Assembly: GCA_023511485.1 (NCBI GenBank)
Contig: JAIMBH010000012.1
Span: 1-64,000, forward strand
DNA: 64,000 nucleotides
Origin: Bacillota bacterium
GTDB lineage: Bacteria > Actinomycetota > Aquicultoria > Aquicultorales > Aquicultoraceae
Direction of reading: 5' to 3'
The notes under the pieces are model-generated. The model was given only the letters and a program-made list of their open reading frames with translations, was not told the DNA's origin and ran no database searches. Every line of letters begins with the position of its first letter. The first letter of the stretch is position 1. This document shows positions 17,097-48,072 of this stretch, in pieces. A program made the position numbers and the translations under genes.

Positions 17097-17951
17097 TCAA
17101 TCTTTAACTACAAGTATAGGGCGTGCTGCGCCACCGATAACCTTTTCAGTTACGCTTCCCACAAGAAGCCTTCTAAGCCCTGTTCTTCCATGACTTCCCA
17201 TGCAGATAAGGTCTACTTTCAATTCGTTAGATAACTCAATGATTTTCTCAAACGCGTTTCCTTCTCTTATAAACGATTCTACTCTAATGCTATGCAACCT
17301 TGCCAGGTCCTCTATATTTCTTACGATCTCTCTCGCTTCTCCAATCATTGCTTCAATTACATCCTGGGCCTCAGGGTAAACCTCCGGTGGTACATCCACT
17401 ACCGAGAGCACTTTTAATTCGCCATTGTAATCACGCGCCATCTTAATGGCTTTGATAGCGGCCACTTCACTGCATTGTGAACCATCGACCGCCAGCAATA
17501 TACGGCTCCACCTAACTTGTGCGTTGTTCGGTACAACTAGTACATTGACCGGGCTGAAACCAATAACCCGTGCCGTTATACTTCCCATAAGCACTCTATC
17601 AATCTTATTAAGTCCCCTCCTGCCCAGGACTATAAGCCCGCAATTGCGCTTCCTCGCAGTATCGGCAATTACATCGTATATCTGACCTTCTTGAAGGATT
17701 GCTTCAATTCGGCCACCCTCTTCTTTAGCGATTGCTTCAGCACTCGATAAAATCTTTTCCCCATGTTTTCTGAAAACCGCTTTTATATTTTTGACTAACC
17801 CATACTCAAGCTCACCCTCATAAGGGGGCTGAACGGTTAAAACCAATACCGCTTTTCTGTTTATTTTCGAGTACCTTATGGTCTGCCTTAATGCGTTTAT
17901 GCTTGACTCTGAACCATCAAAGGCAACTAAAATATTTCCGTTCTTTTCCAT
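17097..17951 (-). CDS. Tandem universal stress protein (two UspA domains)
   Basis: 284 residues made of two Usp domains (about 4-142 and 147-284). Both halves carry nucleotide-binding loops of the G-x2-G-x9-G-S type: GRRGLNKIDRVLMGSITARV and GSHGRTGLRRLLVGSVTEKV, so ATP binding is likely in both. It lies 30 nt downstream of the anion-exporter partner genes on the same strand and probably belongs to that operon. Role in stress adaptation is inferred from the family. Confidence 0.92.
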   Translation of the reverse strand: MEKNGNILVAFDGSESSINALRQTIRYSKINRKAVLVLTVQPPYEGELEYGLVKNIKAVFRKHGEKILSSAEAIAKEEGGRIEAILQEGQIYDVIADTARKRNCGLIVLGRRGLNKIDRVLMGSITARVIGFSPVNVLVVPNNAQVRWSRILLAVDGSQCSEVAAIKAIKMARDYNGELKVLSVVDVPPEVYPEAQDVIEAMIGEAREIVRNIEDLARLHSIRVESFIREGNAFEKIIELSNELKVDLICMGSHGRTGLRRLLVGSVTEKVIGGAARPILVVKD

Positions 17952-32896: not shown

Positions 32897-33442
32897 TTAT
32901 CTTTTTATATTTGAACCTTGCTCTTGTGCCCCGTACAATTGTCTCTGTCTCTGTAGCAGCCTGAAGACCATATTTTTCGCCTCATCTACTTTTAGCTCAT
33001 TGATCTTCTCACGCGATTGCATGTAAATATCAAAGGACATAAGCGCAAGGGTATCTATTTTTGACTCGAGTGAAGATAACGTTTCATTGTCTATAACGCC
33101 ATGTGTGTCGCTAACATTCCGAAGCTCTTCTTTGATTATCTTTTTTAGATGGAAGATAAAGGCCACAGCTTGTGAAGGAGAAAAATTCTGCACAGCTCTG
33201 AGTTTGATGATATTATCGAGGAGAGGAGTGATTTCTTCAAATGGCACCCCTCTTATAAGTGCCTCAATGATACCGTCTATGCCCTCATGGATAGTATATC
33301 CCACCGCACCTGTAAACCTGTTCTTAGTTCCTTTTAAGAAGCCTGCAGCTTCGGCTGGATACGTCTCCATTATCACATCAAACCAGCTCTTCAGGATAGC
33401 GGGCTTCTTCTCCCTTAAGATGTCCTTAAGCTTTGCTTCCAT
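32897..33442 (-). CDS. RsbRD N-terminal domain protein upstream of dsrM
   Basis: 181 residues from the ATG at 33442 (GGAGG ribosome site 5 nt upstream); an earlier ATG at 33481 has none. It is a single helical globin-like domain of the RsbRD_N type: KKPAILKSWFDVIMETYPAEAAGFLKG at the start, then SPSQAVAFIFHLKKIIKEEL. In RsbR proteins such a domain senses stress ahead of a STAS domain, which is absent here. It is 28 nt upstream of dsrM, so it belongs to the same operon. A sensor or regulator of the Dsr complex is possible; haem binding is not shown. Confidence 0.85.
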   Translation of the reverse strand: MEAKLKDILREKKPAILKSWFDVIMETYPAEAAGFLKGTKNRFTGAVGYTIHEGIDGIIEALIRGVPFEEITPLLDNIIKLRAVQNFSPSQAVAFIFHLKKIIKEELRNVSDTHGVIDNETLSSLESKIDTLALMSFDIYMQSREKINELKVDEAKNMVFRLLQRQRQLYGAQEQGSNIKR

Positions 33443-34201
33443 ATTGCCTCCGTTTCTGGCAATTCTGCTTACCAGGCACACCAGTCTTTGCTTCTGGCCT
33501 TATATTGGCCTTTCCGGTAACATAATTAAGTGAAGATCTCATAAGGGTATCCTTACTTCCATCTTTTTCACCTCCTTGACCACCTTTCATGCCATTATAA
33601 AACATGTCTAACGTGAATAAAACACCAAACAACTCGGTAATAACGCGTTAAAGCCAGATAGCTTATCTGTCTACATACCGATAGTAAAACCAATAATCTC
33701 AGCACTATTTTCTTTTTATCCCCCGTAGAGCCTACTTTGTATTTCGCTAAATTGAGACGCTCCCTTAATGGTCTTTAAGTTGTTTCATTTATCTTTTTCC
33801 TCGCTATGGTTAGCTTTTGAGCCAGGCAGAAATCTTCCTTGCATATGCCTATAATTCCGACCACCAATCCTGGTATATGCCAGCTATCTTCATGGAAACG
33901 ACGTTATTAATTTCAATGATTTACTAGTATTCGGAATCAGTCAAGGGTGAATGCTGTTTTTGCATAAATACTTCTTCTAATACTTATAAAATTCATGAGG
34001 GATATGCTTTTTAGTTATAAGGCGCCAGGTTTCACCCATACTTCCAGATTATGTATAACTTAATTTCATTTAGATTGCTTCCAGATATTTATTCGAATCG
34101 CTAAAAAGTGGCGTTAACCCAAATTAAATATCTGATGCGAACGGTAAAGCAAAAGCGAGACCCTCTGAAGTAAACCCCTAAAACCGGACAAGAAAATAGT
34201 C
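33443..34201. other. Gene-free region upstream of the dsr operon
   Basis: About 760 nt that must hold the dsr promoter. Near the operon, an open minus-strand frame (33426-33632) has a strong GGAGGTG site inside it and short stretches that resemble the dsrJ start and its GKAN segment, but it is not a convincing gene. The rest shows no repeat, RNA or motif I can support. Confidence 0.45.
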
Positions 34202-34642
34202 TTGCCTTTTTATCCGGTCTTAAGGCTTATAGTCCAAGAGCTATACAAACGCGAGGTTTTGCTACTCAAGAAACAAGAATTTCAGAATAAACGAGTTAAG
34301 AAACTCTTGGGAAAAAGACAACTTCTTCTTGTGGCTTATCTTGATAAAGCTTTTCCTCTAGACCTTCTAAAAGAAGAGCAAAACAAGATTGCAGACGCTT
34401 TATTGACCGCTGAGACCAGACTTGAAGAATTAACAGCTACAAATGATGAAGTTGAGGAAACCATTTATTTGGCTATATCCATGCTTCTAATTGCCATGAA
34501 GCTTACAAAAAAAGGATCGCCGAAGACCAAGAGAATGTTTAACCAAGCACTCTTTAAGAAAATCTATCTAAACGGCAAAAAGGCTAGCAATCATGAGTTT
34601 GCTGAGCCTTTTGACGTAATTTTTTTCTCCAAGTTCAAATAA
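34202..34642 (+). pseudogene. C-terminal remnant of a serine recombinase
   Basis: 146 codons open from a TTG with no usable start or ribosome site. The readable part matches the C-terminal coiled-coil region of large serine recombinases: KRQLLLVAYLDKAFPLDLLKEEQ (dimer coiled-coil segment), a following helical region ending RMFNQALFKKIYL, and a final short strand. The catalytic resolvase domain and zinc-ribbon are missing, and no trace of them is visible upstream. It stops 7 nt before the CCA end of tRNA-Pro, which suggests an old integration at that tRNA. Confidence 0.72.
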
Positions 34643-34649
34643 GAATTTC

Positions 34650-34726
34650 TGGTCGGGGCGACAGGATTTGAACCTGCGACCGCACGGCCCCCAGCCGTGT
34701 GCGCTACCAAGCTGCGCTACGCCCCG
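34650..34726 (-). tRNA. tRNA-Pro (anticodon GGG)
   Basis: On the minus strand a full cloverleaf folds: acceptor CGGGGCG/CGCCCCG, D-stem GCGC/GCGC, anticodon stem CACGG/CCGTG with 7-nt loop CTGGGGG (anticodon GGG), T-arm GCAGG-TTCAAAT-CCTGT. Discriminator A and an encoded CCA end follow. 77 nt with CCA. Confidence 0.97.
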
Positions 34727-34786: not shown

Positions 34787-36709
34787 TCACCCTATATCTT
34801 CAAGCAGATTTTCGCTAATTAATTCATTAAATCTGTCCTCATACTCAGGTACTGTGGCAATGGGAGGCTTCATGGATTCCTCGATAGCTTTGAGCTCAAG
34901 ATAAAACTGGCTGGGTTCGTGCATGATGAGCTTCATTGTTTTATTCATCTTTTGCAATAGCTCTACACGGTGCCTCTTTTCCAGATTTTCAATAACAACC
35001 TGAATTATTGCGAAAGACATCTTGCTCAAATTTTCCAAAGACTGATTGCGGTGTATGCGCTCTATTAAATCAACCTGACCGATAACATCTAGCCCAAACT
35101 GCTCTAGTATATTTATGAGCAGGCCCATCTCTACACCGTAACCGTTGTAAAATCCAACCTTCTCTAGTACCTCACGGCGGCCTGCATACTCACCGGAAAG
35201 AGGCTGCACCAGCCCAGATAACTCAGGAAAGAAAAGGTTTAAAAGCGGCCTCGCCGTTAGCTCGGTTACTCTTCCACCACCGGTTTCTATAAATTGATCG
35301 CCGATTTTTACCGGTCTTCTATAATAGCCCTTTACATATTTTATCCTGGGGTACTTAAGAATTGGGCCGACCAAGCCATACACAAAGCGCGGGTGGATAT
35401 TTTTTATATCAGTATCTATCCAGGCGATTATGTCTCCTTTTAACGCGTAGAGGCTTTTCCACAGGGCACAACCTTTACCAAGACGAGATCCCCACTGCGG
35501 CAATATCTCGTCGTCTTTAAAAACTTTTATGCCGTAGCTTTTTGCAATCTCGACTGTCTTATCCGACGATCCGCTATCAATCACGGCTATCTCATCGAGC
35601 AATGGGTACCTGTCGTACAGATAACCCTTAATAGTTTCGATGATGTCTCCTATGGTCTGCTCTTCGTTTAAAGCCGGTAAGCCAAGGCTTATGGTCAAGC
35701 CCTGTCTAAGTTTAAGCTCAATTAGTTTTTCGATATTGGAAAATTCGCTGGCATGAAACGTATTCTCCGCAAACCACTTGTCAACGACTTCAGATATGCT
35801 AGCGGTACTTTCCCCATTTCTCAACCTCAGTAGCTCCTCTGGCAAGAAGGTCGTGTTAGTTGCGGCATCAACTGCCTGTGCAATCAAAACGGTTGCATCG
35901 GTATTGTTAATCACTGTTTTTATTACACGCCCCAGCCGTGTCCCATTCGATTTTGAGTACAGCGGCGTTCCCATTATGATAAGGTCGTGCTGTGATGCTT
36001 CCTTGATAATCGTTTCCGCTGTATTATTTGAGCAAGCAGCCAAGAAGTTATAGTCGTCTTTATTAAGGCCTCTCCTTACTAGATAAGAGTTTAAGAGCGC
36101 CTCTTCGCGCCTCATTTCTTTGTCGGTAACATCTTCGTTTAATATGCGCATTATTGTAAGCTCCGCATTAAATTTATGCGAAATCGCCATGACCGTATCA
36201 ATGATCAGGTCAACATGAGGCGCTCCCCTAAGAGGAACTAGAATTTTCCTTATGTTCTTCTTTTTTCCCGGCCTTATAATAAGCAAATCGGTCGAAGATT
36301 TATCGAGCACTTCATTTATTAAAACACTTTGGCTCATATTGCCCTTATCCTCATCTAACCATGGGATTATTAAGAGATTGCAGCTCTCATCTTTTACAGC
36401 AGCATCTATTGCATCCCAGATGCGCCGTGATACCTTGACGCGATTTCTTATCTCGATTGCATGAGCATTGTCAAACCAATTCAAGTTCTCCAGAAAATTG
36501 CGAAAATTCCTGGCTTGTAGCGCACCCGTACTTAAAGACATCTCTTCCGGTACCTCAACGGTACCAAGAATGACTAGGCTACCTTGCTTTTCAGCTAAAA
36601 TTGAAGACGCTATTTTTATAGTGTCCGTGCTTATATCGCTGCCTACTAGCGGCAGCAAAATTTTAAATTCAGAGGACGAATAGAACACTCCATTACCTCC
36701 CGTATCCAT
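34787..36709 (-). CDS. gpgS: Usp-Usp-GpgS fusion: glucosyl-3-phosphoglycerate synthase with stress domains
   Basis: 640 residues. Residues 1-150 and 158-290 are Usp-like domains ([11 protein letters not shown], then [21 protein letters not shown]). From about 328 comes a GT81 glycosyltransferase: [27 protein letters not shown], the metal-binding DTD in AWIDTDIKN, the acceptor loop [15 protein letters not shown] and [13 protein letters not shown]. This matches GpgS, which makes glucosyl-3-phosphoglycerate from NDP-glucose and 3-phosphoglycerate, first step to the solute glucosylglycerate. Classical GpgS has about 320 residues and no Usp part. A GTG at 36688 behind GGAGGT is a better start than the ATG at 36709. 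Confidence 0.85.
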
Positions 36710-37081: not shown

Positions 37082-40000
37082 CTAAGAGTGAACTTTTTTC
37101 TTAAGCACAACTATAACTCCTCTGTCTCCCTGAATAAATTGCACTTCATCCATAAGTTGCTGCATAAGATAAATGCCCCTACCTCTATCCCGTATCAAAT
37201 CAGGCGGTCTCCACTCAGTCAGGTTCGGGTTGTAACCTATGCCTTTATCAGAGATTGTTACCTTGAAATAACCATGCTCAAGGCCACAGCTAACCCTAAT
37301 ATTATTATCCTCGCCATCTGGAGATTGCCCATGCAGGACACAATTGGTAACCGCTTCACAGACGGCTATGAGAATATCGGATGAATCAGCCTTGGATATT
37401 GGGGTTTCTCTTAGCGCTTCGGCGACAAATCTTCGTGCATCGGTTACAGCAATAGGCTTATTGGAAATTACAAGCTCTTTTACCGGAGCTTCATCGATGT
37501 CCTTTATGCATTTTAAGACTACTATTGTAAAGTCATCTATCATGTCGCCTGTTGAGAATCGCACAGTTTGCTCAAAGATAAGATTTGCTAATTCCTGACT
37601 TCCAAGATGTGCAAACTTCTTGACCAATCTCCTCAAGCGTTCGAAACCATAGCAATCCCCCCGGCTATTTCTCATGTCGGTAACACCGTCACTTAGTAGA
37701 ACAAGAATATCGCCCTTTCTTAGCTTTACCTGCTGCTGTTCGATAAAAAGGTTCTGCTGAATACCAAGGGGTGTTTGAGGCGACCACAGATATTTTGTAA
37801 CACCATTTGAGAAATAAAGCGGTGGCAAATGGCCGGCATTAGCATAAACAAAGTTTGCGGTTGCCGGATTATAGACACCATATATAGTCGTTACAAAGAC
37901 TTCAGGGGACGTATCTTCCCAGAGTATCTGGTTTAATGCTCTTAATGGTGATATTACTGAGTCGGTATTTGCGGCTGCCGACCGTAATATATACTTATGC
38001 ATAGATACAAGAAGGGCTGCGGGCAGGCTTTTGCCCGAAACATCACCAATTGCTATACCTACTTTGCCTTTATCCAGGGGAATAAAATCAAAGTAATCGC
38101 CGCCTATTTGCTTAGCAGGCTTGCACATGAAACCTATATCAAGCCCGGCTACCTCCGGCCTGACTCTCGGCAGAATATTCTTTTGTACTTCGGTAGCGAT
38201 TCGCAGGTCGTGATGGTAGGTCTCAAGCTCATGGTCTTTTGTTATATCCCTTATCGAACCTATTACTCCTCTTTTTTCATTGGGGTCTATTAAAGAGTGA
38301 TTGATCTCGACAAACTTTAAGTCACCATTCCTTGAGCGAATGTTGGCTTTTATTTTTTCCATATGTCCGTTCTTTCCATGCATCGGGCATATATCGCATG
38401 GTGGACCATCAACATAAACATCTTTAAATACCTCATAGCATTTCCTACCAATAGCTTTGTCGACGCTTTTGCCAGTTATTTTCTCCAGGGCCGGATTAAA
38501 TAACTGGATTCTAAAATCAGGATCGACTACAAATACACCCTCCCTGGTCCTCTCAAGAACAACAGCGCTTTTTGCCTTTTCTTCAAGCAACTCGACTGAG
38601 AGCTCTGCCTCTCTTCTTGCCACCTTCTCTTCGGTCACCCTTGTGTAAAGCTGATTATTCCGGATGGCAATAGCAAACTGGTTAACAAAAATATTTATTA
38701 TTGAGAGGCGCTCTTCATTAAAGAAACGTGGTTCCTTTGAGTATAATGTTATAATCCCGCAAGCTTTTCCCTTAACCAGCAAAGGAATAAGCACCCTGGA
38801 TCTTAACGGCTCGCCTATTTTAATCAATGGCGTGAGTGATTCATCGTGTTCCTCCAAGTTGTCAATAATAATCGGTGCTCTGCTTCTATAGGCCTTCCCT
38901 ATTAATGTATTATTAGTTACCGGTATCCTCTTTTCTTTAATAACTGAGAAAGATATACCCCACTTATAAGCCAGCTCAAGAGTCTCATCAGACCGGTCGC
39001 TTAAGAAAATAGCCCCGTGCTTTATCCCAAACAACTTCTTTAAGGCCTTGCCTATTTGCTTAAATATCGACTCCAGGTCCACCTCGCTTGCAATTATTTT
39101 AGAAACCTCTAATATCATTGCCAGCTTTTCGGCCTTTGATAAGGCCTCTTCATACAAACGTGAGTTATCAATAGATATGGCAATCTGATTCGCAAAAATC
39201 TGCAAGAGTTCGATTTCTTCCTCGAATCTCGCCCTGTCGCGAGTCCAATCAGATGATAGGCCTAGTATTCCAATAACCCTATTTTGAACAATCAGCGGAA
39301 TACCAAGAAAAGAATCGAAATATTTGCTGCATTGCTCATCGTTAAGTCTTAGCCTTCCATTTACTGAGGTTATTAGTAACGGTTTCTTTCCCTTGAAAAT
39401 CCTTGCTTTACCAGCCTTATCAAAAACTAGCTTTTTCCCTGCTATATTTATATCATTATCAGCTAAAAACTCGGTAATGCGCAGCTCGTTCCCCAGTGCA
39501 TCGCAAAGGGCAATGCCTACCATCTTCGTATTAAAAAATTTCGATATAGCGGCAACTACCGTCTTTTGAATCTTCTTGCTATCATGCGATGAGCTTATTT
39601 TTTGGCTCACGCTGAAGAGATTTTTTAGACCTTTTACTCTATATTCAAGCTGTCGGTAAAGCTGCGCATTTTGAATTGCTATGGACGCCTGGTTTGCCAG
39701 TGTGGTAAGAACCTCTTCATCGGCTTCGGTAAAAAGACTTCCATCCTTTTTCAGGCTAGCCATAACCAGACCGCATGGCTTTTTATTTTGGTCGATAAGC
39801 GGCACACCCAGAAATCCTCTAAGGGGAAGATTACCAGGCTTCTCAATACCTCCTCCCTCAAGAAGCCTGATATCATCTAATCTAAGCGGTTTTCCAGTGC
39901 GCAGAATCTGCGCATAAGCCTTTACATTGTAGGAAAACTTATCAGCCGGGTTCTCACTTTGAGCAGGCACACCCAAAGTAGGATCAATGTTTGATGTGCG

Positions 40001-41188
40001 ATACTCAAAACGCCCAGTTTTCGGATCATACAATGCGGCGGCGGCCATCAACGAGCCAACCGCCTCTCTTGCAGCGTTTACAATCTCCTCCATCATTTTG
40101 CCTATATCCATTTCTGCAACAATTTGGGATATATGCGTATGCAAAATCCTTAGCTCTTCTGCCTTCTTTTTTGTTTCTTCAAAAAGTTTGATGTTCTTTA
40201 GCGCTGCAGCAACTGGGCCTGCGAGTGATTGAAGCAGCTTTAGGTCATCGTTACTAAATCTTGATGGCCTTGCACTAAAAGCCTCAAGCACCCCAATAAC
40301 CTGTTCATCCTGCTTTATTGGCACTCCAACATATGACTTAAACTGTTTTTGATTGATCCAGGGTCGATCATGAAAGCGGCTTTTTGATCGGACATTTTTT
40401 ATCAGCAAGGGATTTTTGTTTTTAACAATGCTTGCCGCTGGATCATCCTTTAATGGAACATTTCCAAAACCCTTTAGTATCTTGTTATGTCCCGAAGCTA
40501 CCTGAAACTCGAGGCAGCCTCCTCTAACAAGCAATATGTCGCATAAATCAGCCTCTGCTATAGCTATGCCCGCTTGCGTAATTTGGCGGGTTAGCCTCTT
40601 TAAATCGAGTGTACTTCCCATAGCCTTCCCAAGATGCATTAGTGAGGCTTTAGTAACTATATCGCGACGCTTTGTTGTATCAAGATAGTGTATTCTGCTA
40701 ATCCCATCAGATATGTGGTTTTTTAAAGCATCAAGCAGACTCCTTGTTGCGGGGTCGCTCTTTAACCTCTTGTCGCCATATAATGCAAGAACTCCAAGAT
40801 TTGAGCCTTTATCGTCTAAAGTTATAATTGTAAAACAACGGCTATCGCTTATAACGTCTTTAGGGAGATACTTAAAAAGGGCTTTTTCGACATTTGTATT
40901 CTTCCTAATGACTATAGGCTGTTCGCGGATAAAACCATTACTGGTGACTTCAATAAAATCGGTCCCTTCGTTGCTTCTGAGTAATATAATGCCTGTTTTG
41001 GCTTTGAAGATGACAAGAAACGGCTCAAGAATTCCGGATAAGATTTGTTGCATTTCATGTCCGATGTCAAGGTTGCCTTTAACTAGCTGAGTAAATGTTT
41101 TTTGCCAGAATTTTTCGTCTTCGTCGGAAAAATCTAAATCCAATCCCACTAAATCCTCGATAGCTGTATTTCGATCGTTAATTGACAT
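37082..41188 (-). CDS. Multi-GAF/PAS PP2C (SpoIIE/RsbU-type) phosphatase with anti-sigma-like kinase domain
   Basis: 1368 residues. About five GAF domains follow each other (roughly 40-180, 195-345, 360-515, 525-690, 700-855), then a PAS domain (about 870-985; CDICPMHGKNG), a SpoIIE/PP2C phosphatase (about 1020-1230; IGDVSGKSLPAALLVSMH, VLLSDGVTDM) and a C-terminal RsbW-type HATPase_c_2 domain (about 1240-1366; AVCEAVTNCVLHG, ISDKGIGYNP). The combination predicts a sensor controlling a partner-switch pathway (dephosphorylating an anti-sigma antagonist and perhaps phosphorylating it as well). No antagonist or sigma factor is nearby. It starts at ATG 41188. The length is unusual, though such chains occur in Actinobacteria. 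Confidence 0.93.
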   Translation of the reverse strand: MSINDRNTAIEDLVGLDLDFSDEDEKFWQKTFTQLVKGNLDIGHEMQQILSGILEPFLVIFKAKTGIILLRSNEGTDFIEVTSNGFIREQPIVIRKNTNVEKALFKYLPKDVISDSRCFTIITLDDKGSNLGVLALYGDKRLKSDPATRSLLDALKNHISDGISRIHYLDTTKRRDIVTKASLMHLGKAMGSTLDLKRLTRQITQAGIAIAEADLCDILLVRGGCLEFQVASGHNKILKGFGNVPLKDDPAASIVKNKNPLLIKNVRSKSRFHDRPWINQKQFKSYVGVPIKQDEQVIGVLEAFSARPSRFSNDDLKLLQSLAGPVAAALKNIKLFEETKKKAEELRILHTHISQIVAEMDIGKMMEEIVNAAREAVGSLMAAAALYDPKTGRFEYRTSNIDPTLGVPAQSENPADKFSYNVKAYAQILRTGKPLRLDDIRLLEGGGIEKPGNLPLRGFLGVPLIDQNKKPCGLVMASLKKDGSLFTEADEEVLTTLANQASIAIQNAQLYRQLEYRVKGLKNLFSVSQKISSSHDSKKIQKTVVAAISKFFNTKMVGIALCDALGNELRITEFLADNDINIAGKKLVFDKAGKARIFKGKKPLLITSVNGRLRLNDEQCSKYFDSFLGIPLIVQNRVIGILGLSSDWTRDRARFEEEIELLQIFANQIAISIDNSRLYEEALSKAEKLAMILEVSKIIASEVDLESIFKQIGKALKKLFGIKHGAIFLSDRSDETLELAYKWGISFSVIKEKRIPVTNNTLIGKAYRSRAPIIIDNLEEHDESLTPLIKIGEPLRSRVLIPLLVKGKACGIITLYSKEPRFFNEERLSIINIFVNQFAIAIRNNQLYTRVTEEKVARREAELSVELLEEKAKSAVVLERTREGVFVVDPDFRIQLFNPALEKITGKSVDKAIGRKCYEVFKDVYVDGPPCDICPMHGKNGHMEKIKANIRSRNGDLKFVEINHSLIDPNEKRGVIGSIRDITKDHELETYHHDLRIATEVQKNILPRVRPEVAGLDIGFMCKPAKQIGGDYFDFIPLDKGKVGIAIGDVSGKSLPAALLVSMHKYILRSAAANTDSVISPLRALNQILWEDTSPEVFVTTIYGVYNPATANFVYANAGHLPPLYFSNGVTKYLWSPQTPLGIQQNLFIEQQQVKLRKGDILVLLSDGVTDMRNSRGDCYGFERLRRLVKKFAHLGSQELANLIFEQTVRFSTGDMIDDFTIVVLKCIKDIDEAPVKELVISNKPIAVTDARRFVAEALRETPISKADSSDILIAVCEAVTNCVLHGQSPDGEDNNIRVSCGLEHGYFKVTISDKGIGYNPNLTEWRPPDLIRDRGRGIYLMQQLMDEVQFIQGDRGVIVVLKKKVHS

Positions 41189-41538: not shown

Positions 41539-42531
41539 ATGCCTGAACTAAGACAGGATCCCGTGACAAAAAACTGGGTTGTCATTGCTAAAGAAAGAGC
41601 CAAACGGCCACGTGACTTCATTGAGGGAGGAGCCGGAGCACCACCTGTTTGCCCCTTCGACTATGGACATGAATCGATGACCCCGCCTGAAACGTTTGCA
41701 TTCAGGCCAGACAATATACCGCCCAATTCACCTGGTTGGATAGTAAGGGTTGTTCCAAATAAATTCTCCGCTTTTACGCCAGACAATTTTGAGGAATCAA
41801 AAAATGGCTTGTTCAAGACCCGTAAAGCATACGGAGCCCACGAGGTTGTAATACACGGGCCTGATCATAACTTGGATCTGGCCACCTATCCCATACAGCA
41901 GTCTGAGGCAGTTCTAAAAGCGTATGTGCATCGTTATAGGTATCATATGTCACAACCGTACGGCAAATATATTCTTATTATTATAAATCATGGAAAACCG
42001 GCTGGGGCATCGCTTGAGCACGACCACTCGCAGATTTTTGCTATACCTTTTATTCCGCCATTGCCCAATTCTGAGCTTAAGGGAGCCGCCAAATATTATC
42101 AAGCTAACAATCGCTGCGTCTACTGCGATATGATAGCATCTGAAATAAAAGATGGGCACAGAGTCATCGAGATAACAGACAACTACATTGCCTACGTCCC
42201 TTTTGCGGCGAAACTTCCTTTTGAAACACGGATTATGCCGGTTAAGCACCGCCCACAGTTTGAAGAAATATCCGATGGCGAAATAGAAGAGCTTGCCGCC
42301 GTATTTAGAAGGTCGCTCAGACGCTTCTATTTCGGTCTTAGAGACGTACCCTATAATATGTACCTGCACACGAGCCCTCCCGGCTACGATATGATTGAAA
42401 GCTACCACTGGCATATATCCATAATCCCTAAGCTAACAGTAGCCGCCGGGTTCGAACTAGGCGCAAACGTATGGATAAATGTGACCCTACCTGAAGATGC
42501 TGCAGAATTTTTAAGAAGCATAGAGGAATAG
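41539..42531 (+). CDS. galT: GalT-like hexose-1-phosphate nucleotidyltransferase
   Basis: A 330-residue HIT-superfamily transferase: LRQDPVTKNWVVIAKERAKRP at the N-terminus, then GKPAGASLEHDHSQ with the catalytic H161-x-H163-x-Q165 triad, and a second half with CVYCDMIASE and the conserved SYHWHISIIPK. It should move a nucleotide between NDP-sugar and hexose-1-phosphate, and so supply NDP-glucose for the solute genes nearby. The N-terminal zinc pair CPxC of classical GalT is changed to CPFD (Cys38). The middle residue of the active site is Asp rather than Pro. Start ATG with AAGGAGA upstream. ADP-glucose phosphorylase-type activity is an alternative. Confidence 0.82.
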   Translation: MPELRQDPVTKNWVVIAKERAKRPRDFIEGGAGAPPVCPFDYGHESMTPPETFAFRPDNIPPNSPGWIVRVVPNKFSAFTPDNFEESKNGLFKTRKAYGAHEVVIHGPDHNLDLATYPIQQSEAVLKAYVHRYRYHMSQPYGKYILIIINHGKPAGASLEHDHSQIFAIPFIPPLPNSELKGAAKYYQANNRCVYCDMIASEIKDGHRVIEITDNYIAYVPFAAKLPFETRIMPVKHRPQFEEISDGEIEELAAVFRRSLRRFYFGLRDVPYNMYLHTSPPGYDMIESYHWHISIIPKLTVAAGFELGANVWINVTLPEDAAEFLRSIEE

Positions 42532-42709: not shown

Positions 42710-43777
42710 TTAGGCGGTTTTAAGCAACTCGAGTTGACCTCTGATCTGACCGCCTTCTCTTTCGAGTATTTCCTCATAAGCCCTGATGTAGTTATCAACC
42801 TGTTTCTCTACGCTAAAATAACGCTCAACATGCTTCCTGCAGTCCATTGTGTCGATTTCGTCCACTCTTGCAACTGCCTTGACCATATCATCAGTGCTGT
42901 CGCAGATAAATCCAGTCTTGCCGTGTGCGATTACTTCAGGCACTGAACCGTTCCTCATCGCAATAACAGGAGTTCCGCATGCCATGGCCTCTGTCATAAC
43001 TAAGCCAAACGGTTCGGGCCACTGGATTGGGAAGAGCACGCAGCTTGCTTTCTGATACATCTCAATCTTGGTCTTGGTATCGATCTCACCGATAAGCTCA
43101 ATATTCTTTGCCCCTTTAAGTACCGGCTCAACCTTCTCTTTAAAGTAGGCTCTCTCATGCGGCTCGGTCATCTTTGAGACCATAATCATCTTCTTGCCGG
43201 TTTTCTTAGCCACCTCAACAGCAACATGCGAGCCCTTTTCCGGATTCATTCTACCAATAAAGAAGATAAAATCTTCCTTATCCTCGCGGTAGGTATACTT
43301 AGCTGTATCGACTCCGTTATAGATGGTGCCGATAAAGTTGAGGTCGCCGAATCTCTCCCTCTGGTAATCACTAATTGCATTGTAGTAAATGCTGTCTTTC
43401 AGTCGGTGGTAAAAATCTTTTGCTTCTTGGGTTGCCGGGCCATGGAGTGTGTGAAGTACCGGTGTATCCACGAACGACCCTATAACTGGGCCAATTAAGC
43501 CGCTGTGGTCATGGATTAGGTCAAAATCACCGGCCGCCTGATAGGCATTCATTACATGTAAAAGATCTGGATAAGTCTGGCCAATCTTCTCGCTCGGCGC
43601 AACGTCGTATACACTTACAAGCTTCGCATCTGTAACTGAGTCACCCGCTGCAAACAAAGTGACATCATGGCCTTTTCTTACCAACCCCTCAGTTATGCAG
43701 TGAACGACGTACTCAATGCCGCCATATCCTTTCGGTGGTATTGCGTACCAAATTGGAGCAATCTGTGCTATCTTCAT
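42710..43777 (-). CDS. Glycosyltransferase family 4 protein
   Basis: 355 residues from the ATG at 43777, which has a GAGGAG site 5 nt upstream; a longer frame from 43837 is less likely. GT-B fold: N-terminal PPKGYGGIEYVVHCITEGLVRKGHDVTLF, central GRMNPEKGSHVAVEVAKKTGKKM and the donor-site EX7E motif EPFGLVMTEAMACGTPVI. It has similarity to the bacterial GT4 group that uses NDP-glucose or NDP-mannose; the acceptor is not known. It is divergent from treT, with which it shares an intergenic region, so a role in making a storage or compatible solute is plausible. No signal peptide or membrane helix. Confidence 0.85.
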   Translation of the reverse strand: MKIAQIAPIWYAIPPKGYGGIEYVVHCITEGLVRKGHDVTLFAAGDSVTDAKLVSVYDVAPSEKIGQTYPDLLHVMNAYQAAGDFDLIHDHSGLIGPVIGSFVDTPVLHTLHGPATQEAKDFYHRLKDSIYYNAISDYQRERFGDLNFIGTIYNGVDTAKYTYREDKEDFIFFIGRMNPEKGSHVAVEVAKKTGKKMIMVSKMTEPHERAYFKEKVEPVLKGAKNIELIGEIDTKTKIEMYQKASCVLFPIQWPEPFGLVMTEAMACGTPVIAMRNGSVPEVIAHGKTGFICDSTDDMVKAVARVDEIDTMDCRKHVERYFSVEKQVDNYIRAYEEILEREGGQIRGQLELLKTA

Positions 43778-44081
43778 GACTTCTCCTCGCTTTCTTTCAT
43801 CAATAGTTCTGTTCCTGGTTCTGACTCTTGCTTGCAAAATAATCGTTAAAAAATTCTACAGCGGCTTTAACTTTTACCGATATAAGTATCACCGATATAA
43901 GTATCGAGTTCGCAAAATAGGTACTTTAGAGGTTTTTTGTATGGGATAATATGGAAGTTTTTTATAAACCATGCTGGTAGATATTGTAATTTACAATAAA
44001 TACTGTAACATATGTGATTTTAGAGGCAGTTTTTCGCCGGTACGTAGCGGGAATAAATCATAGTACAAGGAGAATGATGCC
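43778..44081. other. Divergent promoter region of GT4 and treT
   Basis: 304 nt without a gene. A perfect direct repeat of 15 nt (ACCGATATAAGTATC twice, at 43876-43890 and 43891-43905) is its main feature. The treT ribosome site ACAAGGAG is at 44065-44072. Confidence 0.6.
43876..43905. repeat. Two tandem 15-bp repeats in a divergent promoter
   Basis: ACCGATATAAGTATC occurs twice in tandem between two divergently transcribed glycosyltransferase genes. It may be a regulator-binding direct repeat or a chance slippage duplication. Confidence 0.7.
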
Positions 44082-45350
44082 ATGTTAACACCAGTTCCTG
44101 TTGGGACAAAATCGCTAAAAGATTATGAGAACATTGTTGATGAAGAAATTATCGAAAAGGTTCGACAGCTCGGTAAAGATATGAAGGGCGCAAGGATTCT
44201 AAACATCAACTCTACTGCCTTTGGTGGCGGAGTCGCCGAGTTGCTTTACACGCTCGTCCCCCTTATGAGAGATGTTGGACTTGAAGCCGATTGGCAGGTA
44301 ATCCCCGGCAGCGAGGATTTCTTTACTGTAACTAAGCTATTCCATAACGCTCTTCAGGGTATGGACTTAATCGCAACCCCTGAGATGATCGAAGCGTATT
44401 TAAAGCAAAACGAGCAAAATGCAGAGCAGTTTACAGGCGATTACGACGTTGTAATGGTGCATGACCCACAACCGGCGGCAATGCTTGCCTTCCTAGATGA
44501 TAAAGGAAAGAGGAGCGGCAAGTGGATTTGGCGATGCCATATCGACCTTACAGCAGCAAAATTATCTGTCTGGGAATTCTTAAAACCATACCTGGAGCTG
44601 TACGACGCTGCCGTCTTTACTATGCCGCAATACGTAAAAGAAGGTTTCCAGATGGAGAAGATTGCGATAGTGCCGCCGACAATCGATCCTTTGAGTCCAA
44701 AAAATATGGACATTAGCACTGAAACAATAAACAGCATCCTTGAAAGATATAATATAGACCCAAATCGACCAATTGCCACTCAGGTATCAAGATTCGACCC
44801 ATGGAAAGACCCGCTTGGGGTAATCGACGCCTACAGGATCGCAAAGAATGAGATTCCAGATTTACAGCTTCTCATGATTGCCTCCATGGCAACCGATGAC
44901 CCAGAAGGCATGCACTATTATGAAAAAACCTCAAGACATGCCGGCGGTGACCCAGACATTCATCTTCTCTCTAACCTCGAAGGCGTAGGTAACCTTGAAG
45001 TCAATGCCTTCCAGAGAGCATCCGATGTTATCATACAGAAGTCTACCCGAGAAGGATTTGGTCTTGTTGTAAGCGAGGCCCTATGGAAAGAAAAGCCGGT
45101 AATCGGTGGCGACGTTGGCGGAATTCCGCTTCAGGTTATAAACGGCCAAAATGGGTATCTTGTAAGCAACGTTTTTGACTGCGGTCAAAGATTAATCCAA
45201 TTGCTTAAAGATCCGCAGATGGCGCGTGAAATGGGTGCGTTCGGTAAAGAGCATGTGAGAAAGAATTTCTTAAGTCCAAGACAGCTGGCCGATTACATGG
45301 ACCTATTTAATTACCTGTATACGAGCGGCACCTTAAAGATTGTAGTATAA
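44082..45350 (+). CDS. treT: Trehalose glycosyltransferring synthase (TreT family)
   Basis: A 422-residue GT4 enzyme: ILNINSTAFGGGVAELLYTLVPLMRDVGLEADW at the N-terminus is the TreT signature, followed by VHDPQPAAMLAFL and WRCHIDL, QVSRFDPWKDPLGVIDAYR and a donor-site ESTREGFGLVVSEAL-type motif near residue 330. TreT makes trehalose directly from NDP-glucose and glucose, or the reverse. ATG at 44082 with ACAAGGAG about 9 nt upstream. The GT20 gene follows by 78 nt, so the two may be one operon. Confidence 0.9.
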   Translation: MLTPVPVGTKSLKDYENIVDEEIIEKVRQLGKDMKGARILNINSTAFGGGVAELLYTLVPLMRDVGLEADWQVIPGSEDFFTVTKLFHNALQGMDLIATPEMIEAYLKQNEQNAEQFTGDYDVVMVHDPQPAAMLAFLDDKGKRSGKWIWRCHIDLTAAKLSVWEFLKPYLELYDAAVFTMPQYVKEGFQMEKIAIVPPTIDPLSPKNMDISTETINSILERYNIDPNRPIATQVSRFDPWKDPLGVIDAYRIAKNEIPDLQLLMIASMATDDPEGMHYYEKTSRHAGGDPDIHLLSNLEGVGNLEVNAFQRASDVIIQKSTREGFGLVVSEALWKEKPVIGGDVGGIPLQVINGQNGYLVSNVFDCGQRLIQLLKDPQMAREMGAFGKEHVRKNFLSPRQLADYMDLFNYLYTSGTLKIVV

Positions 45351-45428: not shown

Positions 45429-47000
45429 ATGGTCGACTTGCAAAGCAGTATTAGGGAACGAGGATCGCCAGGCCTTACGAAGCTTCTCAAAAATAGGCCT
45501 ATAATTATAGCGTCTAATCGCGGTCCGGTCGAATTCAGGCAAGACAATTCCGGCGACATAGAAATGAAAAGAGGAGGCGGAGGGCTCGTAACGGCTATGA
45601 CAGCCGTTAGCGAGGCGGCGCATGCAGTGTGGATATCGGCCGCAATGAATGATGTGGAGCGATCAATAGCGCAGGACAACTCGTTGATAGGCTTCCCCGA
45701 AGACAGCCCGCAATACCGTGTCAAGTTGGTTAATATACCAAAAGACGTATACAACAGTTATTATAACACCATAAGTAATCCCCTTCTTTGGTTTATTCAC
45801 CACTATATTTGGAATCTAACCGAGACCCCCTCATTTACTGCTGAGACTCATCAGGCCTGGAAAAATGGATATGTCGTTGCAAATAAGCTTTTTGCCGAAG
45901 CAGTGGCTAAAGAGAGCCTCAAACATGACAGCCCAATAATAATGCTTCAGGATTACCACCTATTTATTGCTGCTAAATATATAAGGGAGATCACAGACGA
46001 ACCATTTTTATTTCATTTTACACATATCCCCTGGCCGGAGCCGGATTACATGAGCATCCTGCCCTTCGATATACGGCAACAACTTCTAAAAGGAATGCTT
46101 GCAAATGATATGGTTGGCTTCCAGTCAAGACATTATGCAGGCAACTTCTTGCTCTGTTGTGAATCTTTGCTCGGCGCCCAGGTAAACTGGAGAAAAAGAA
46201 CTGTTGTCTGGCAGGGTCGTGAGGTTTACGTGCGCACCTATCCCATATCAATTGACCACGCCAACCTGCATAAGATGAGCGAAAGCAGTAAAGTGCTAAA
46301 GCTTGAGCAAAAACTGCTTGAAGAAAACGAGGGCATGAATTTGATCGTGCGCACCGACAGAAGCGACCCTTCGAAGAACATCGTCCGGGGATTTATGGCC
46401 TACGATGTTTTGCTCACCAAGCACCCAGAGCTAAAAGAAAAAGTTAAGTTCCTTGCGCTTCTGTATCCAACGCGTGAAAATATCCGGGAATACAAAAGGT
46501 ACCGCAGTGAGATAGAGGCAACCGTTGAGGCAATCAATAAGCGGCACAAAACCAAGAAGTGGACCCCTATCTATTTAAGACTTAAGGATAATTACCCTGA
46601 ATCAATTGCCGCACTTAAATGTTACGACGTATTGCTGGTCAACCCCATTTTTGATGGCATGAACCTTGTGGCAAAAGAAGGTCCCGCAATAAATACGCGC
46701 AACGGCGTTTTGGTTCTCTCACAGAACGCCGGTGCATCGTCTGAGCTTGGCAGCTCGAGCATTATCGTAAACCCCTTTGACATCGAAGAGACCGCCAACG
46801 CAATGTATCAGGCACTTACCATGAGCGACTCCGAAAAACAAATTCGCGCAAAATCTCTAAAAGAGGTTGTAGAACAAAACAACTCAATTAAGTGGCTGCA
46901 CTATCAGTTAAAAGATATCGTAAGTTTGGAGAAGAAACGTGTCAGTGTCAGGGTGTCAGGGGACGTTCCTGAAAAACTGAATAATTACATAACCACCTGA
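45429..47000 (+). CDS. otsA: Divergent GT20 (OtsA-like) trehalose-6-phosphate synthase family protein
   Basis: 523 residues. IIIASNRGPVEF and GGGGLVTAM near the start, MLQDYHLFIAAKYIRE, FTHIPWPEPDYMSILPFD and the donor-site VNPIFDGMNLVAKEG are clear OtsA-type landmarks; the loop RTDRSDPSKNIVRGF replaces the classical RLDYxKG segment. It should make trehalose-6-phosphate or a glucosylated relative; no OtsB or phosphatase domain is fused. AAGGA lies directly before the ATG, so a TTG three codons on is an alternative start. The last ~15 codons come from the transposon inverted repeat (46957 on), and the stop is inside the element. Confidence 0.85.
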   Translation: MVDLQSSIRERGSPGLTKLLKNRPIIIASNRGPVEFRQDNSGDIEMKRGGGGLVTAMTAVSEAAHAVWISAAMNDVERSIAQDNSLIGFPEDSPQYRVKLVNIPKDVYNSYYNTISNPLLWFIHHYIWNLTETPSFTAETHQAWKNGYVVANKLFAEAVAKESLKHDSPIIMLQDYHLFIAAKYIREITDEPFLFHFTHIPWPEPDYMSILPFDIRQQLLKGMLANDMVGFQSRHYAGNFLLCCESLLGAQVNWRKRTVVWQGREVYVRTYPISIDHANLHKMSESSKVLKLEQKLLEENEGMNLIVRTDRSDPSKNIVRGFMAYDVLLTKHPELKEKVKFLALLYPTRENIREYKRYRSEIEATVEAINKRHKTKKWTPIYLRLKDNYPESIAALKCYDVLLVNPIFDGMNLVAKEGPAINTRNGVLVLSQNAGASSELGSSSIIVNPFDIEETANAMYQALTMSDSEKQIRAKSLKEVVEQNNSIKWLHYQLKDIVSLEKKRVSVRVSGDVPEKLNNYITT

Positions 47001-48072
47001 TCATATATGTTATCTACTAACAATTTTAGCGTTTCATCCTCTTTAAAACGCACCCTTATGTTTTTTACAGCATGACTTACTAAGGAATCATCCCGTCCCA
47101 AAATATTAGCTATTTCACTACACTGAAAATCGCACATTTCTTTTGCTATATATATGAAGATGTACCGTGGCAGCACAACCGCTCTAGAACGTCCTTTGCT
47201 CAGAATATCAAGCTCCCCCAAACAAAAATGCTCAGCAACTTTCTCAAGAATGCTTTTTAGGCTTGGCCTTTTACAAGCTTTGAGCGCAGCCTTACATGTC
47301 TTTGCTTCATCAAGCCTTTGGCTTAAGTCTTCGATAAATTCATCATCACCTAGAAACCTTTCATGTTCTGTTATGTAAAGGTCTTCTTTGTTGCTACCAT
47401 TTATCCCGTCAAGCACAAAACAACCAAAAAGCTGCCTTGCTAAAAATGCCTTTTTAGAAAACATAGGCAAGACCAGTCTGGAGTCGACTAGCGTCCCTTT
47501 TGTATTTTGTAGGTAGTTGCTGTGGCTACTCCAAGGGTAACTTTGTGGCACATCAACGATGCCCGCTCTTACTGGGTTTAGATGGATATATCGGATTAGC
47601 TTAAGAAGATATCTGTCCGCATCGCATATGATCGATTTATATCGGCCCTGAAACACATGCCCTACCCTATTGTACTTTCGATTGTAATAACTTGCATATG
47701 AGGTTTGAACAATCCTCATGATATGCGATAGCGAACATGTCTTAGTACTGAGCAACAAGTGGACATGATTTGGCATAAGACAATAACTGTAGAGATAAAA
47801 CTCGTAACTCTCTTTAGTTGTTCTAAGCTTTTTTATGTAATACTTGTAGTCTTCATGTTCATGAAAGATCTCTTGTTTGTTATTGCCTCTCGCTATTACA
47901 TGATAAAGCGCGCCCGGATATTCTGCCCTTGGCCCTCGCGGCATCTGACCCTCCTACTAATAAGAACGATTGCCTTTTAGAGGATATTAACACAACTGCG
48001 CTTTTGTGCCTATAGTTATCGATGCTTCCATTGGCAGATGAAAGTTTTTCAGTTTTTCAGGAACGTCCCCTG
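46957..48072. mobile_element. REP-associated transposable element with 25-bp perfect inverted repeats
   Basis: The outer ends are identical 25-nt inverted repeats: CAGGGGACGTTCCTGAAAAA plus CTGAA at 46957-46981 and its reverse complement at 48048-48072. Between them lies one Y1-type transposase gene on the minus strand. AGGGGACGTTCCT resembles REP-type palindromes flanking RAYT genes in many bacteria. The left repeat is inside the end of the GT20 gene. Confidence 0.85.
46985..47944 (-). CDS. REP-associated tyrosine transposase (RAYT) with DnaA-C-like C-terminus
   Basis: 319 residues. The N-terminal Y1 transposase domain (about 1-150) has the family start MPRGPRAEYPGALYHVIARG, HUH motif PNHVHLLL and the tyrosine-containing region following MRIVQTSYASYYNRK. 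Residues ~215-319 resemble the DnaA C-terminal (helix-turn-helix) domain (IAKEMCDFQCSEIANILGRDDSLVSHAVKNI), a known fusion in this family. It lies inside the element with 25-bp inverted repeats. Reading frame intact, so the element may be active or recently arrived. Stop codon lies 15 nt inside the GT20 gene, convergent. Confidence 0.92.
   Translation of the reverse strand: MPRGPRAEYPGALYHVIARGNNKQEIFHEHEDYKYYIKKLRTTKESYEFYLYSYCLMPNHVHLLLSTKTCSLSHIMRIVQTSYASYYNRKYNRVGHVFQGRYKSIICDADRYLLKLIRYIHLNPVRAGIVDVPQSYPWSSHSNYLQNTKGTLVDSRLVLPMFSKKAFLARQLFGCFVLDGINGSNKEDLYITEHERFLGDDEFIEDLSQRLDEAKTCKAALKACKRPSLKSILEKVAEHFCLGELDILSKGRSRAVVLPRYIFIYIAKEMCDFQCSEIANILGRDDSLVSHAVKNIRVRFKEDETLKLLVDNIYDQVVM

Follow-up and report, generated by a model that had tools for sequence, protein, structure and literature searches.

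The window (the entire stretch of DNA that we analyzed, 64,000 nucleotides) includes a minus-strand open reading frame of 640 codons, with an ATG start and zero internal stops. In order, the predicted protein has a UspE-like tandem of Usp (universal stress protein) domains (residues ~15-279), a linker, and a complete GpgS (glucosyl-3-phosphoglycerate synthase) domain of family GT81 (Table 1). A preliminary description of this locus proposed that two Usp domains are fused to a GpgS, and our results bear this out. When we searched the two parts separately, the N-terminal half matched Usp in Pfam (PF00582; 37 bits, as compared to a cut-off of 24; the best stretch was residues 154-276), and residues 308-620 matched PRK13915, which is NCBIfam's model for glucosyl-3-phosphoglycerate synthase (365 bits, as compared to a cut-off of 262). 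Usp domain 1 had a much weaker sequence match than domain 2. Usp was found in all 22 of the fusion-family members that we scanned. We also built an AlphaFold2 model of the protein from 62 homologues (pLDDT 87.5, pTM 0.86). In the model, residues ~16-146 and ~155-278 each form a complete alpha/beta domain of the Usp type; a short and uncertain linker and a GT-A domain follow, and the Usp tandem packs against the enzyme domain. In Foldseek, the N-terminal half of the model matched the tandem Usps PA1789, UspE, and Rv2623 over ~290-299 columns.

We then looked for the same domain order in relatives. The fusion is present in a single frame in 12 genomes of the window organism's family and class. 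When we scanned the contigs of GTDB genomes with the family alignment, 80 of the best 80 matches were fused in one ORF (keeping the best full-length matches biases this set toward fused proteins). Because the identical single-frame order recurs in the 12 relatives and in the 80 further loci, the fusion is neither a chance event nor an assembly join. The open single frame in ~90 independent genomes rules out both a missed stop codon between two genes and an artifact of assembly. The fusion is real, and it is one gene.

Table 1. Features of the Usp-GpgS fusion gene, its conserved neighbors, and the closest relatives of its Usp module.
Feature	Coordinates in the window, or loci	Strand	Evidence or remark
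Usp-GpgS fusion gene, 640 aa	34787..36709	-	ORF, Pfam, NCBIfam, AlphaFold2 model
Usp domain 1 (residues ~15-147); lacks the ATP motif; S60 conserved, R70 invariant	36269..36667	-	conservation, model, Foldseek
Usp domain 2 (residues ~154-279); matches Usp in Pfam; ATP motif degenerate	35873..36250	-	Pfam, model, motif check
R161-G162-A163, conserved RGG-type signature in place of the Asp-Gly-Ser of canonical Usps	36221..36229	-	conservation
Variable linker (residues ~280-308)	35786..35872	-	lowest conservation, low pLDDT
GT81 GpgS catalytic domain (residues ~309-620)	34850..35785	-	PRK13915, solved relatives, Foldseek
Metal-binding DXD motif, D432-T433-D434 (D134-S-D136 in the GpgS of M. tuberculosis); invariant across 62/62	35408..35416	-	alignment; PMC2581804
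GAF/PAS/SpoIIE phosphatase/HATPase regulator, upstream of the fusion	37082..41188	-	five same-family relatives have it in synteny next to the GpgS gene
GalT-like nucleotidyltransferase	41539..42531	+	conserved in family cluster
GT4 glycosyltransferase	42710..43837	-	conserved in family cluster
TreT-like trehalose synthase (GT4)	44082..45350	+	conserved in family cluster
GT20 (OtsA-like) synthase	45429..47000	+	conserved in family cluster
APC amino-acid permeases with C-terminal Usp tandem	L172, L173, L194 (G028, G019, G261)		closest relatives of the GpgS-fused module

To check the identity of the enzyme, we compared the glycosyltransferase half to solved GT81 enzymes (E down to 4e-73). The best solved relatives were the MpgS (mannosyl-3-phosphoglycerate synthase) of Rubrobacter xylanophilus (3f1y) and the mycobacterial GpgS, and Foldseek confirmed the fold. 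We transferred the roles of residues by alignment to the GpgS of Mycobacterium tuberculosis (PMC2581804). E349, K412, D432, D434, R480, T482, L504, E507, E527, H553, N555, and M564 are invariant across all 62 homologues, as are the GpgS residues for the metal, the ion pair, UDP, and the acceptor. These include the equivalents of the Lys114-Glu232 ion pair and of the acceptor loop at Val186/Thr187, set in a GT-A fold. The active site that had been described, with its DTD and acceptor loop, is indeed complete.

Since no single structure or sequence is a better match than the R. xylanophilus MpgS, we considered whether the enzyme might be an MpgS, or might have dual specificity like the R. xylanophilus enzyme. 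In M. tuberculosis GpgS, Ser81 is credited with blocking GDP, while Ser210 and Tyr213 are credited with disfavoring mannose (PMC2581804). In the R. xylanophilus MpgS, these positions hold Ala, Ala, and Phe. The window's protein has Ser at both positions where Ala would admit GDP or mannose, and across the homologues, the GpgS-type residues are S379 (= Ser81) in 62/62, S505 (= Ser210) in 57/62, and Y508 (= Tyr213) in 61/62. Also, genes with the signature of glucosylglycerate phosphorylase are found next to fusion genes (see below). An MpgS or an enzyme of dual specificity is thus very improbable. Because the catalytic residues are invariant, the discriminating residues are of the GpgS type, and the R. 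xylanophilus MpgS differs at them, we read the enzyme half as a GpgS, with predicted activity on UDP-glucose and 3-phosphoglycerate.

The Usp half was said to be an ATP-binding stress domain, and our results do not support this part of the preliminary description. If the Usp domains bound ATP (or ADP or AMP), they could make GpgS activity depend on how much energy the cell has. ATP-binding tandem Usps do share the predicted fold; the first glycine of the motif (G247) is conserved in 98% of homologues, and G260 is conserved in 79%. However, the full motif (G-2x-G-9x-G(S/T)) is missing from both Usp domains of the window's protein, and, counting each domain separately, from 61 of the 62 homologues. 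In domain 2, the Asp after strand 1 that contacts the adenine nucleotide is replaced by Arg in 60 of 62 homologues, within the conserved RGG signature. Furthermore, the motif is intact in the canonical tandem Usps that the window's organism encodes as free proteins (one of which lies in the window, at 17097-17951). Because ATP binding persists in some Usps whose motifs are degenerate (PMC3673472), we describe ATP binding by the fused tandem as unlikely and go no further; judging from these residues, it probably does not occur in the canonical way. Gating of GpgS by ATP is correspondingly unlikely.

The Usp half is not a decaying remnant: between close pairs, its dN/dS is just 0.04-0.17, so it is a protein domain that is maintained by purifying selection. 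In most close pairs it is under weaker constraint than the glycosyltransferase half, and in the family alignment it diverges quickly except at a few positions. To find its relatives, we searched 17 genomes with a profile of the Usp module. The closest full-length matches were the C-terminal Usp tandems of APC amino-acid permeases (126-171 bits), while free Usps scored at most 66 bits.

How widespread is the fusion? Most of the best 80 loci are from Chloroflexota; Flexilinea flocculi and Candidatus Chloroploca are among them. Some others were assigned to Myxococcota, Dormibacterota, and Thermomicrobiota, and a single MAG each to Bacillota and Steroidobacteraceae. An even sample of 251 Chloroflexota genomes gave matches in 73; nearly all of these extended into the Usp part, and there was one short stand-alone copy. 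Among 246 Actinomycetota genomes, the matches outside of Aquicultoria (the class of the window's organism) cover essentially the glycosyltransferase half only. So the expectation that GpgS normally stands alone is correct for the sampled Actinomycetota outside of Aquicultoria, but in Chloroflexota, the enzyme usually occurs as the fusion.

In a tree of the glycosyltransferase domain whose stand-alone members are all from Actinomycetota (other phyla could add more), the fused proteins form one clade with 100/100 support, and a stand-alone protein from a close relative of the window's organism (G004) is nested inside it. A clade restricted to the fused proteins was rejected (P = 0.03, AU test). 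Given this nesting and the test, G004 most likely lost the Usp part, in a single loss. The neighbors of its gene are those of the window's gene (same family, syntenic position), and we found no Usp remnant upstream of the G004 gene. The placement of another family of the same class, f6, differs between our quick and careful trees, so a transfer between Aquicultoria and Chloroflexota may have gone either way.

We also noticed some unusual variants of the fusion. At L019 (G029:C76), the fusion is broken over several frames, due to either a pseudogene or a sequencing error, and that genome has an intact stand-alone GpgS elsewhere. Triple fusions of the form GT-Usp-GpgS are found at L047:3855-6932 and L048:1-3282. 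Their extra N-terminal domain is a remote relative of GpgS (~49 bits), and it is encoded by a separate adjacent gene at L046, L050, L112, and L116.

In Chloroflexota and their allies, the neighbors of the fusion gene often point to glucosylglycerate metabolism: at least one of six recurrent neighbor families is present at 60 of the best 80 loci. (1) Among the GT4 glycosyltransferases, some members score 218-237 bits against mannosylglucosylglycerate synthase (MggS), which is under the cut-off of 640. (2) Others are MGH1-like or GDE-like glycosidases. (3) Among the GH13_18 proteins, 16 of 18 have the TETN signature of glucosylglycerate phosphorylase, and the other two are cut fragments. (4) A histidine phosphatase lies directly downstream at 13 loci; it is related to GpgP, and indistinguishable from other members of its family. 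(5) Glycerate kinase is present at 5 loci. (6) The last family is a second, remote GpgS-like glycosyltransferase. Genes for glucosylglycerate phosphorylase often adjoin GpgS, its phosphatase, and glycerate kinase (PMC7178133).

The window's organism has a genome of 2.37 Mb that encodes DsrMKJOP and the beta subunit of APS reductase, so it is a sulfate- or sulfur-metabolizing organism. The Chloroflexota-type partners are not adjacent to its fusion gene. Instead, the conserved cluster in its family comprises the SpoIIE-type stress regulator, the fusion, and the GalT-like, GT4, TreT, and GT20 genes. In families f3 and f6, which belong to the same class, the fusion gene lacks solute-related neighbors; in f3, it lies after ruvCAB. 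We did not find a homologue of the GH13_18 phosphorylase in the window's organism or its class, in a genome set that had no positive control. In a search for GpgP, the sole histidine phosphatase in the genome adjoins cobS and scores above the cut-off for CobC. We also considered a HAD-IIB protein (G000:C33) as the phosphatase and rejected it: it scores below every specific cut-off, including that for mannosyl-3-phosphoglycerate phosphatase.

Several other features of the window are worth recording. Directly downstream of the fusion is a tRNA-Pro(GGG) (34650-34726, minus strand), and next to that is a 146-amino-acid ORF (34202-34642, plus strand) with no match in Pfam; by eye, it resembles the C-terminal part of a site-specific recombinase. 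The tRNA and this ORF are possibly an integration scar. A protein with an RsbRD N-terminal domain (32897-33481, minus strand) is encoded just upstream of dsrM on the same strand, so that parts of stress partner-switching systems are found near both the sulfite-reduction genes (RsbRD) and the solute genes (the GAF/PAS/SpoIIE regulator). Another ORF (46985-47944, minus strand) joins a Y1 transposase (IS200-like) domain to the C-terminal helix-turn-helix domain of DnaA.

Considering the pathway context as well, we think it likely that the protein is a normal GpgS of family GT81 whose N-terminal UspE-like tandem is an accessory module for regulation or assembly. Judging from the complete conservation of the site, the glycosyltransferase domain would transfer glucose from UDP-glucose to 3-phosphoglycerate, with a divalent metal held by D432-T-D434. 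The product, glucosyl-3-phosphoglycerate, would be the precursor of the compatible solute glucosylglycerate. In Chloroflexota, it would be dephosphorylated by the neighboring histidine phosphatase, and the product would be extended by the MggS-like glycosyltransferases and recycled by glucosylglycerate phosphorylase and glycerate kinase. The Usp tandem may regulate, stabilize, or localize GpgS. It is dispensable, because the close relative G004 lost it and kept the enzyme in the same gene context. The architecture, the selection on the Usp half, and this natural Usp-less orthologue suggest that the Usp module may regulate the synthesis of glucosylglycerate.

The Usp tandem could instead be a scaffold for structure or oligomerization, or a docking site for partners (pathway enzymes or a permease), without any small-molecule ligand. 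The rapid divergence of the Usp half outside of a few positions fits with this idea, as do the pathway enzymes encoded beside the fusion in Chloroflexota and the triple fusions, which join on an enzyme that is encoded elsewhere by an adjacent gene. On the other hand, the conserved RGG (161-163) and G247 sit at the nucleotide contacts of ligand-binding Usps, which hints that a pocket has been kept. We view a pure scaffold as possible but rather unlikely. More speculatively, the tandem that is common to GpgS and the amino-acid permeases might sense a signal other than ATP, such as cyclic di-AMP, so that one module would control both the synthesis and the transport of solutes, with Arg-Gly-Gly as part of an altered pocket. 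Cyclic di-AMP was reported to be a ligand of the Usp domain in KdpD, a potassium sensor (PMC4686210). We consider this a long shot.

Overall, we favor an ordinary GpgS with an accessory Usp module. We found no description of the Usp-GpgS fusion in the literature that we searched, with most subscription papers out of our reach. It is a variant of a known enzyme that is widespread in Chloroflexota and related uncultured bacteria and is undescribed in the searchable literature. How stress switches the synthesis of osmolytes at the level of the protein is poorly known, and Usp domains seldom have a partner with a defined activity. A conserved tandem that is covalently joined to GpgS offers a direct readout, the Usp-less relative G004, whose gene has the same neighbors, provides a natural control, and the fusion is present in cultured Chloroflexota such as Flexilinea flocculi.

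Among known systems, the GpgS of M. tuberculosis and M. hassiacum (GT81; 3e25, 4y6n, 7pe4) has the same glycosyltransferase fold (Foldseek TM ~0.9 on the target) and shares all of the catalytic, UDP, donor-sugar, and acceptor residues that we checked. But the mycobacterial enzyme is a stand-alone protein of ~330 amino acids, without a Usp module, and it initiates methylglucose lipopolysaccharide. The closest solved relative of the glycosyltransferase half, at 38% identity, is the R. xylanophilus MpgS (3f1y, 3o3p), which also stands alone, carries Ala in place of both Ser81 and Ser210, and was crystallized with GDP-mannose. The UspE-type tandem Usps (E. coli UspE, 5cb0; PA1789, 3mt0; Rv2623, 3cis) have a tandem fold like that of the N-terminal half. 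Unlike the fusion, they are free proteins, and both domains of Rv2623 contain the ATP motif, while neither Usp domain of the fusion does. The APC permeases with a C-terminal Usp tandem have a related module, but there it is joined to a membrane transporter rather than to a glycosyltransferase. To our knowledge, the solute pathways with glucosylglycerate phosphorylase, GpgP, or MggS have been described with stand-alone synthases, not with the fusion; in many Chloroflexota, homologues of these enzymes are encoded right beside it.
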